A DNA stretch of 64,000 bases from contig WHUB01000013.1 in NCBI GenBank assembly GCA_009377395.1, forward strand, positions 1 through 64,000. Reading direction: 5' to 3'. The position numbers and the translations under genes were made by a program. The stretch is from Actinophytocola sp. (lineage in GTDB: Bacteria > Actinomycetota > Actinomycetes > Mycobacteriales > Pseudonocardiaceae). This document shows, piece by piece, positions 49,335-51,279 of this stretch; the stretch's first letter is position 1, and each line of letters starts with the position of its first letter. The notes beneath the pieces are model-generated. The model was not told the DNA's origin. It did no database searches and saw only the letters and a list, made by a program, of their open reading frames with translations.

Positions 49335-49550
49335 ATGACAGCAACAGTGCCTCAAACGGGGGGACGTCTGCTCACCCCTGGCGAAGTGGCATCCCTGTTC
49401 CGTGTCGACCCCAAGACCGTGACCAGGTGGGCGGCCGCAGGGCGCATCGGATCGATCCGTACGCCGGGCGGGCACCGCAGGTTCCGTGAGGAAGAGGTCA
49501 ACGAGCTCCTCGCGAAGCTGACGACGGAAGCGACCGACCTGGTCGAGTAA
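49335..49550 (+). CDS. bldC: MerR-like developmental regulator BldC
   Basis: Small DNA-binding protein that controls morphological development in Streptomyces and binds DNA as head-to-tail multimers. Conserved core: LLTPGEVASLFRVDPKTVTRW, then IGSIRTPGGHRRFREEEV (winged HTH, recognition helix about 26-34). 71 aa. AAGGAGG upstream. The open frame continues upstream, but BldC homologues start here. Monocistronic: a long hairpin follows the stop. Confidence 0.95.
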   Translation: MTATVPQTGGRLLTPGEVASLFRVDPKTVTRWAAAGRIGSIRTPGGHRRFREEEVNELLAKLTTEATDLVE

Positions 49551-49573
49551 AGCCGGGCCCGTTCACCGAGCCC

Positions 49574-49636
49574 GGCATCGAGCCGAAGACGGCAGGGTGT
49601 GCCGCGAGCACCCACCTGCCGCCTTCGGCTCGATGC
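49574..49636 (+). terminator. Long hairpin terminator after bldC
   Basis: GCATCGAGCCGAAG pairs with CTTCGGCTCGATGC, then after one A-C mismatch seven more pairs follow (CGGCAGG with CCTGCCG), giving a stem of about 22 bp and a 19-nt loop. It starts 23 nt after the bldC stop; followed by ATTTA. Confidence 0.88.
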
Positions 49637-49639
49637 ATT

Positions 49640-49716
49640 TACCAAGAAGACCGAAAGCCGGTCGACTGGCACACTCGGCTGACCTGCCAGTCGGCTTGGT
49701 TTCGGTCGGATTGGTA
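49640..49716. repeat. Large imperfect palindrome U (left copy of an inverted pair)
   Basis: Self-complementary arms in order: TACCAA, 3-nt internal loop, GACCGAAA, loop, GTCGACTGGCA, apical loop, TGCCAGTCGGC, loop, TTTCGGTC, loop, TTGGTA. The inverted partner at 49991-50071 has the same layout with compensatory changes. Lies between the bldC terminator and the 59-residue ORF. Confidence 0.85.
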
Positions 49717-49798
49717 TCTACCAGCGCCTTACACACATCTCAGCTCCGAGGGCTACGCTCGGGGTTAGGAACTTCTGCCCGCCACGGAAGGAGCGAGA

Positions 49799-49978
49799 AT
49801 GCTCTACCTGCTTGCCGTTGTCGGCGCGGTGACGATCGCGGTGCTGCTGTGGCGCGTGTACAGCTCCGAGCGCGTCGGGATACCCGACACCCGGCGACAC
49901 GTCGCACCCGATGACGACCCCGATTTCCTGCGCAAGCTCGGCGAGCAGCAGCGCAAGAAGCGCGACGAGGACGAGTAG
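49799..49978 (+). CDS. 59-residue single-pass membrane protein
   Basis: MLYLLAVVGAVTIAVLLWRV forms an N-terminal membrane helix, followed by a charged tail (PDDDPDFLRKLGEQQ, ending RKKRDEDE). GGAAGGAG is well placed before the ATG and codon use is typical of the genome, so it appears to be a real gene despite its size. Function unknown. It is bracketed by two large inverted palindromes and converges with the MinD-like ATPase gene. Confidence 0.75.
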   Translation: MLYLLAVVGAVTIAVLLWRVYSSERVGIPDTRRHVAPDDDPDFLRKLGEQQRKKRDEDE

Positions 49979-49990
49979 CCGAGCCAGTAG

Positions 49991-50071
49991 ATACCAATCC
50001 GACCGGAAGTAATCCTGACTGGCAGGCAAGGCCAAGGATGCCAGTCGGCTTACTTCCGGTCTTCTTGGTAT
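49991..50071. repeat. Large imperfect palindrome D (right copy, inverted)
   Basis: ATACCAA, 3-nt loop, GACCGGAAGTAA, loop, CTGACTGGCA, apical loop, TGCCAGTCGG, loop, TTACTTCCGGTC, 3-nt loop, TTGGTAT. Its reverse complement aligns along its whole length with the copy at 49640-49716. Situated between convergent genes, 12 nt after the small membrane gene and 2 nt from the ATPase stop; could serve as a bidirectional terminator. Confidence 0.87.
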
Positions 50072-50073
50072 GC

Positions 50074-51279
50074 CTACTGCCCCGAGAAGCCGTCCGCGAC
50101 GGCGGCGCCGAGTTCGAGCAGCTTGGTGCGGGTGTGTTCCTGCAGTCGGTCCAGCTCGATCTCGGCCCCCTCCTCGAGGTGCGGGTCGAACGGGATCTGA
50201 CACACCGCCCGCATCCGCGCCGCGAAGTGCGCCTCGAGCTTGTCCAGATCGACCGAGCCCGCCCTCGGCCGCACCGAGTTGATCACCGCGACGGAGCGCT
50301 TCACCAGCTCGCCGTAGCCGTGCGCGTCCAGCCAGTCCAGCGTCGCCGAGGCGCTGCGGGCGCCGTCCACCGAGCCGGACGAGACCAGCACGAGCTGGTC
50401 GGCCAGCTCCAGCACGCCCTTCATCGCCGAGTGCATCAGCCCGGTCCCGCAGTCGGTGAGCACGATGTTGTAGAAGTGCTCGAGCAGGTCGACCGCGCGC
50501 CGGTAGTCGTGCTCCGAGAACGCCTCCGACACCGCCGGGTCCTGCTCGCTGGCCAGGATCTCCAGCCTGCTCGGCCCCTGCGAGGTGTAGGCGCGGATGT
50601 CGCTGTAGCGCGTGATGCGATCGGCGTCGCGCAACAGGTGCCGCACCGTCGCCGTCGTCTCCATCGGGATCTTCTGTGACAGCGTGCCCCGGTCGGGGTT
50701 GGCGTCGACGGCGACGACCCGGTCACCGCGCAGCGAGGCGAACGTCGAGCCGAGCGTCGTGGTGGTGGTCGTCTTGCCGACACCGCCCTTGAGGCTGAGC
50801 ATCGCGATCTTGTAGCAGCCCCGCAGCGGCTGGTTGACCCGCATGACCAGGTCGCGCTGCCTGCGGTCCTCCGCGCTCTCGCCCGGGTTGATCAGATGAC
50901 CGCTCGCGACGTAGACGGCCTTGCGCCAGCCGGACTGCGGCCGCCGCTTCACCGGCCGGATCAGCTGCGCCGACGCGAGGTCCCCGGTCGGCCCGGCGGT
51001 GTGCCTGCCGCGCCTCGGCCGCTGCTGGTGGGGCGGTGGCTGCGGCGGCATCTGGTAGTGCGGGCCGAGCGGCGGCAGCGGCTGCTGCGCCCGCGGCGGC
51101 TGTGGCGGATACGGCTGCTGCCCCGGCACGACGGGAGGGACCTCGTTGTGGCCGACCGGCTGCGCCTGCGGCGCCGCGTGCTGGCCGTGGGTCGAGGGAA
51201 AGGGGTGTGAGTCGGTGCGGCCGTCACCCGGAACCTCGCCGACGTCATCGGCGCTGACTTCGTCGTTCGGCTCGCTCAC
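50074..51279 (-). CDS. MinD/ParA-like ATPase with proline-rich N-terminus (ESX-associated type)
   Basis: Deviant Walker A KGGVGKTTT at 164-172 (signature Lys164, catalytic Lys169), preceded by the conserved QRDLVMRVNQPLRGCYKIAM linker; VAVDANPDRGTLSQ and VLTDCGTGLMHSAMKG follow. Residues 1-110 are disordered and rich in Pro, Gln and His, the layout of EspI-like proteins of type VII secretion. 401 aa from GTG 51279 (AGGAGG upstream). No ESX genes lie in the window, so its secretion link is inference; chromosome or polar positioning is the alternative. Confidence 0.85.
   Translation of the reverse strand: MSEPNDEVSADDVGEVPGDGRTDSHPFPSTHGQHAAPQAQPVGHNEVPPVVPGQQPYPPQPPRAQQPLPPLGPHYQMPPQPPPHQQRPRRGRHTAGPTGDLASAQLIRPVKRRPQSGWRKAVYVASGHLINPGESAEDRRQRDLVMRVNQPLRGCYKIAMLSLKGGVGKTTTTTTLGSTFASLRGDRVVAVDANPDRGTLSQKIPMETTATVRHLLRDADRITRYSDIRAYTSQGPSRLEILASEQDPAVSEAFSEHDYRRAVDLLEHFYNIVLTDCGTGLMHSAMKGVLELADQLVLVSSGSVDGARSASATLDWLDAHGYGELVKRSVAVINSVRPRAGSVDLDKLEAHFAARMRAVCQIPFDPHLEEGAEIELDRLQEHTRTKLLELGAAVADGFSGQ

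Follow-up and report, generated by a model that had tools for sequence, protein, structure and literature searches.

Two hairpins, inverted relative to each other, lie on either side of a short open reading frame in the 64,000-nucleotide stretch of DNA analysed here (the window). Are they the ends of one small transposon, paired signals in RNA, or separate arrivals at neighbouring sites? The comparisons described below indicate that they are probably independent insertions of a non-autonomous, GTAG-tagged mobile palindrome of about 90 nt, which is dispersed in the Haloechinothrix group and in a few genomes elsewhere in the order. We read the element as a mobile palindrome because it is present in many intergenic copies, because corresponding sites are filled in some genomes and empty in others, because only one side carries a conserved tail, because most copies have kept a mismatched internal loop, and because insertion appears to be nearly simple.

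Two hairpins around a small host gene

The features of the locus are given below. G001 (Haloechinothrix halophila), G002 and G003 are the other three genomes of the genus.

49335–49550, + strand: bldC-family regulator gene (NF033787 above cut-off), upstream of element 1
49575–49636, + strand: separate hairpin 3′ of bldC, with a stronger fold, terminator-like by position, kept in G001–G003
49640–49729, − strand: element 1, a GTAG-tagged palindrome (palindrome part 49640–49716, tail 49717–49729)
49799–49978, + strand: small host ORF of 59 aa, with a hydrophobic N-terminus and a charged (Lys/Glu-rich) C-terminus
49979–50070, + strand: element 2, a GTAG-tagged palindrome (tail 49979–49991, palindrome part 49992–50070)
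50074–51279, − strand: ParA/MinD-like ATPase gene, whose stop codon adjoins element 2 (start as called by the codon-usage gene caller written for this analysis)

An earlier note, made from the sequence alone, had described related, inverted and strongly folding hairpins around the small ORF, and this description holds. On the + strand the two folds gave z-scores of −6.4 and −7.1 against dinucleotide shuffles, none of 200 shuffles being equal, and on either strand z was about −5 to −7 relative to shuffled sequence. The differences between the stems of the two copies are likewise genuine and largely still paired; in the comparison of copy 1 with copy 2, 40-nt arms were 80% complementary and 29-nt arms 86%. 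Copy 1 (49640–49716) also contains internal mismatches, absent from the earlier note, and both copies share a 3 × 3 mismatched internal loop close to the base of the stem. The limits could be refined, as conserved sequence extends past the palindrome on one side only, in a tail of about 13 nt ending GTAG-A. An Rfam scan of the window gave no match over the curated threshold, and the matches at 49500–50150, to microRNA precursors, were all sub-threshold.

The elements lie very close to their neighbours. Element 1 starts 3 nt past the strong bldC hairpin, and element 2 begins immediately 3′ of the stop codon of the small ORF. A copy in G003 (L114:2514) likewise sits just beyond a GC-rich inverted repeat. 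The product of the small ORF had no Pfam or NCBIfam match above cut-off, and the ORF was found beside bldC in G001, G002, G003, G011 and G030. It is an ordinary host gene of 59 codons and not cargo.

Dispersed copies and empty sites

In the genome that contains the window (4.69 Mb in 622 contigs), an exact pattern found nine copies and a looser pattern 13, and reversed-pattern controls found none. The earlier note had suggested looking for further copies with a covariance model. A model built from nine copies detected 31 distinct places in this genome (55 matches over both strands), 29 of them in addition to the two window hairpins, and more in relatives. In a set of 60 genomes including this one, nine had matches: all four of the genus, G011, G030, G008, G020 and G045. 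An even draw from the order gave matches in six of 298 genomes, again including this one, indicating a patchy spread; the copy numbers from that search, which scored 13 candidates per genome, are lower bounds. A Kutzneria MAG also carries a copy. With a single H. halophila copy and an exact 19-mer as queries, no match was obtained in phages, plasmids or viral contigs.

For closer study we used 95 copies from five genomes: 30 from the genome of the window (G000), 23 from H. halophila, 22 from G003, 17 from G011 and three from G030. G002, G008, G020, G045 and G293 stand outside this set, and the G003 and G011 matches were fetched in part. The consensus of the GTAG strand is 5'-C[T/A]GTGCCGGTAG-A-TACCAA-TCC-GACC...GGTC-TTC-TTGGTA-3'. 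Nearly all copies are about 90 nt long, and GTAG is exact in 77 of the 95. The element is polar: the tail is conserved at one side only, and its two outer ends do not form an inverted repeat. Most copies have a mismatched internal loop, a few have it paired (G002:C138, G293:C39), and the inner stem and loop vary from copy to copy. Both G008 matches (L018, L026) are of a short 52-nt form from which most of the inner stem and loop has gone. The copy at G002:C138:3599 (L207:3599) is a near-perfect palindrome, in which the loop triplet has given way to bases complementary to the other arm.

Additional matches to the tail were of several kinds. Those at G002:C138:3599, G293:C39, C26 and C37 belong to full hairpins, the one at G000:C22 to a copy interrupted by a gap, and those at G003:C532, G002:C30, G002:C138:2278 and G011:C10 to degraded or partial copies; the genes beside these extra matches were judged by eye from translations. 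At G001:C1:414613 (L156, about 9600) there is a left half-element, after which the ten bases of its outer end, TACTGGGCCG, occur a second time. This half-element was considered as an autonomous parent and rejected; it resembles a deletion remnant, as between short repeats. The best identity between copies within one genome was 96%, in H. halophila, where 10 of the 23 fetched copies fall within about 0.4 Mb of a 5.55-Mb contig (G001:C1:2168138–2543527; loci L070, L071, L076, L079, L081 and L082).

Orthologous sites were found both filled and empty. The site of element 1 is filled in the genome of the window and in G002, and empty in G001 and G003. Element 2 is present in the genome of the window only, G001, G002 and G003 being without it, and in G011 and G030 bldC and the small ORF are present without either element. 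Another copy in the genome of the window (L053) corresponds to empty sites in G001 and G002, and one G003 copy to an empty site in the genome of the window. Empty sites, which the earlier note had proposed to look for, were thus obtained for element 1, L053 and the G003 copy; when 11 loci of the genome of the window were examined together, base-level resolution was reached at L053 only.

Since the two sites have been filled independently, and the ORF with its neighbours is conserved where the elements are missing, the pair represents two separate insertions beside a host gene. The hairpins behave as small non-autonomous mobile DNA, and to this extent the earlier note is supported; its 432-bp unit with terminal repeats is not. 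Copies are dispersed elsewhere without the ORF, the very observation that the note had named as speaking against a unit, and close pairs elsewhere surround unrelated genes, namely a serine dehydratase with an NAD-binding protein, a 2-hydroxyacid dehydrogenase, and a zinc-binding dehydrogenase (close pairs in G001 and in contig C88 of the genome of the window; five bracketed proteins were checked in Pfam and the rest by eye). A single 432-bp transposon with the hairpins as its terminal inverted repeats would account for the inverted arrangement of the two copies, but with the ORF free of elements in G001, G003, G011 and G030, and beside element 1 alone in G002, its probability is practically nil; the unit is refuted by the orthologous sites and the dispersed copies. 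A would-be composite transposon is thereby replaced by a dispersed palindrome family.

Pairing, insertion ends and candidate movers

We examined pairing in an alignment of 79 copies (A6), obtained from the 95 by removing 16 with scores of 38.7 to 68.2, some equally weak copies being kept. RNAalifold returned only four pairs from this alignment, and hence a hand-written structure of 29 pairs was counted. In this structure 85.3% of cells were paired, compared with 77.8% in a shuffled control, which kinship among copies inflates, and 20–45% when the structure was slid, a control in which a structure written from the same copies is favoured. Double changes were present in 22 of the 29 pairs (15.5 in shuffled alignments). 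Covariation of the stems is thus seen across the family.

Orthologous copies gave a different picture. In five orthologous copy pairs, scored with the family structure, 101 stem pairs were unchanged and 27 were paired in one copy only; three were compensated, four had changed on one side with pairing kept, five were unpaired in both copies and five were gapped. Unrestricted folds gave a like picture, with compensated, one-sided and broken pairs numbering 5, 9 and 27 or 2, 10 and 32. Four of the five orthologous copy pairs are low-scoring and their copies are probably old. The earlier note had concluded from the covarying stems that selection acts on the structure; the covariation stands, but selection on the structure in place does not agree with 27 broken pairs against three compensated and four one-sided pairs kept. 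Because stems covary across copies yet orthologous copies mostly decay, folding seems to matter during spread, and pairing looks, from these alignments, to be needed for spreading rather than for a function in place.

The covariation could instead reflect mostly template switching between the arms, that is, quasipalindrome correction, for which no fold is needed. Homogenisation of arms by this route is described in passages of PMC8604942, and in the copy at G002:C138:3599 the whole left loop triplet has changed from TCC to GAA, which complements the right arm exactly. As the main source of the covariation, however, we consider it rather unlikely: in orthologous copies decay is commoner than homogenisation, and the mismatched loop, which correction should have erased, has been kept in most copies. 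Template switching is compatible with a mobile palindrome and may add to its covariation.

Insertion ends were compared with empty sites. The joined flanks of the filled site equalled the empty site in length at two of the three, element 1 and the G003 copy, with 2, 2 and 4 mismatches in 24–25 nt, and at L053 the joined flanks were one T shorter than the empty site in both relatives. A TA duplication was at first read from the empty sites, which fit a duplication and a TA carried by the element equally well. This reading was weakened by the lack of association between left and right: the end dinucleotides match in 33 of the 95 copies, compared with 31.7 expected by shuffling, and among the 25 best copies TA is found on the left in nine and on the right in 23. 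The T at the right end forms a pair with an inner A, and in 10 of 79 copies the two bases have changed jointly. As the end dinucleotides are unassociated and the right-end T co-varies with the inner A, we favour a near-simple insertion that would involve no target duplication.

The same observations bear on a classical miniature inverted-repeat element of the kind of RUP, Correia and ERIC, moved by an IS630-type DDE transposase, with TA as a 2-bp target duplication. The empty sites suit this explanation as well as they suit an element-borne TA, and IS630-type DDE_3 matches were obtained in four of six genomes searched (G000, G001, G003 and G030). The size of the element, its intergenic placement and its in-frame stops recall ERIC and RUP as described in passages of PMC2229807 and PMC2759123: ERIC, RUP and Correia (NEMIS) elements are imperfect palindromes of about 100–155 nt between genes, with TA at both ends (PMC2229807), and ERIC gives its neighbours C-terminal tails or stops (PMC2759123), as the element does. 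In structure the element differs from these families: its two outer ends are not inverted copies of each other, and the test of association between the end dinucleotides lends no support to a TA duplication. Moreover, G002 and G011 carry copies and gave no DDE_3 match, and 10 DDE_3 loci contained scattered matches to the blunt end (2–3 mismatches) and none to the tail motif. With left TA in so few of the best copies and the joint changes at the right end, we judge movement by a DDE enzyme unlikely.

The mobile palindrome most likely acts as a folded single strand, to judge by analogy. One strand of the element would fold into the hairpin, and an enzyme that reads the structure would join it beside T-A/G, a dinucleotide for which there is a loose preference, in the manner of REP and IS200/IS605-type single-strand elements; pairing would matter while a copy spreads and decay after it has landed. 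IS200/IS605 transposons have hairpin ends and a short target, and can be likened to the element in this respect. In passages of PMC2817692 they are also described, in agreement with the element, as lacking both true terminal inverted repeats and a larger target duplication. An IS200/IS605 transposon has two ends with cargo between them, whereas the element has a single hairpin.

The likeness to GTAG REPs extends further. In passages of PMC2817692 and PMC3733652 these are described as extragenic and dispersed, with covarying stems, an unpaired GTAG at one end of the palindrome (E. coli, Stenotrophomonas; GTAG-1 to GTAG-24) and, in some families, a mismatch within the palindrome, all of which the element shares. 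In the same passages REPs are 20–40 nt long and usually number more than 100 copies, whereas the element is about 90 nt long and numbers tens; the 52-nt form in G008 comes close to REPs in length. The element also differs in a conserved C[T/A]GTGCCG before GTAG and, over all copies, in not lying mainly below coding regions. The element is best read as a REP-like, GTAG-tagged mobile palindrome of larger size; searches of an open-access library turned up no description of it, and within that literature the family is new.

Passages of PMC2817692 and PMC3733652 name RAYTs as the presumed movers of REP elements. None of 12 genomes with element matches, some of them weak, had a match to the RAYT model NF047646 over cut-off, and one (G030) had a weak match; in a control set the model scored over cut-off in one of 14 genomes. 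The Y1_Tnp domain (PF01797) was absent from six of eight relatives searched, H. halophila included. The genome of the window has one Y1 gene, beside an ORF read as TnpB, and no match to GTAGATACCAATCC was present nearby within four mismatches; the G002 counterpart of the Y1 gene is an IS200/IS605 transposase (NCBIfam). A RAYT or Y1 transposase as the present mover was rejected, neither having been found in most carriers, and no partner gene was found near element copies. The mover may have been lost, or may be of another type. It is possible, though doubtful, that Actinomycetota harbour a folded single-strand family with REP-like signals (GTAG and a mismatched stem) that is moved by neither a known RAYT nor a known IS200/IS605 transposase but by some other enzyme, and that inserts without target duplication beside T-A/G. 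If REP-like signals are moved here by something other than a RAYT, GTAG palindromes would be tied to Y1 transposases less closely than thought.

Placement relative to genes

In the five genomes, none of the 95 copies lay within a called gene, defined as one running more than 20 nt past both element ends (genes were called with our own codon-usage script); 71% of the TA dinucleotides in the copy-bearing loci are coding. Neighbouring genes were convergent at 18 copies, divergent at 20 and co-directional at 57. The genome of the window alone leans towards gene ends, with nine convergent and two divergent arrangements, and 21 of its neighbouring genes point at the blunt side of the element compared with nine that point away; the other genomes lack the first tendency and, taken together, the second. 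Over all 95 copies, 54 genes point at the blunt side and 41 away. No T-run follows the stems.

The earlier note had offered paired terminators or RNA processing sites as a further explanation, and this distribution does not bear them out. More generally, the hairpins might be an RNA element that selection keeps at gene ends and duplication spreads, either a terminator or an RNase III/E processing site. They are very stable, their stems covary, genes end inside them in 24 cases, and the bias in the genome of the window is of the expected kind. That bias disappears in the full set of copies, however; the U-tract of an intrinsic terminator is missing, pairing is lost in orthologous copies, and bldC already has a conserved hairpin of its own. 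We consider such a role highly improbable.

For a mobile palindrome, copies inside genes would be lost and copies at gene ends would survive, with up to a quarter of the survivors now apparently supplying the stop codon of a neighbouring gene. In the 24 cases among the 95 copies in which a called gene stops inside the element, the family adds a short C-terminal tail, for example YQEDRK, to a host protein whose frame enters the element. The C-terminus of a shikimate kinase (Pfam) in H. halophila is encoded by an old copy (L071:2464–2943), and the aligned gene of G003 (L124) likewise ends inside its own copy of the element.
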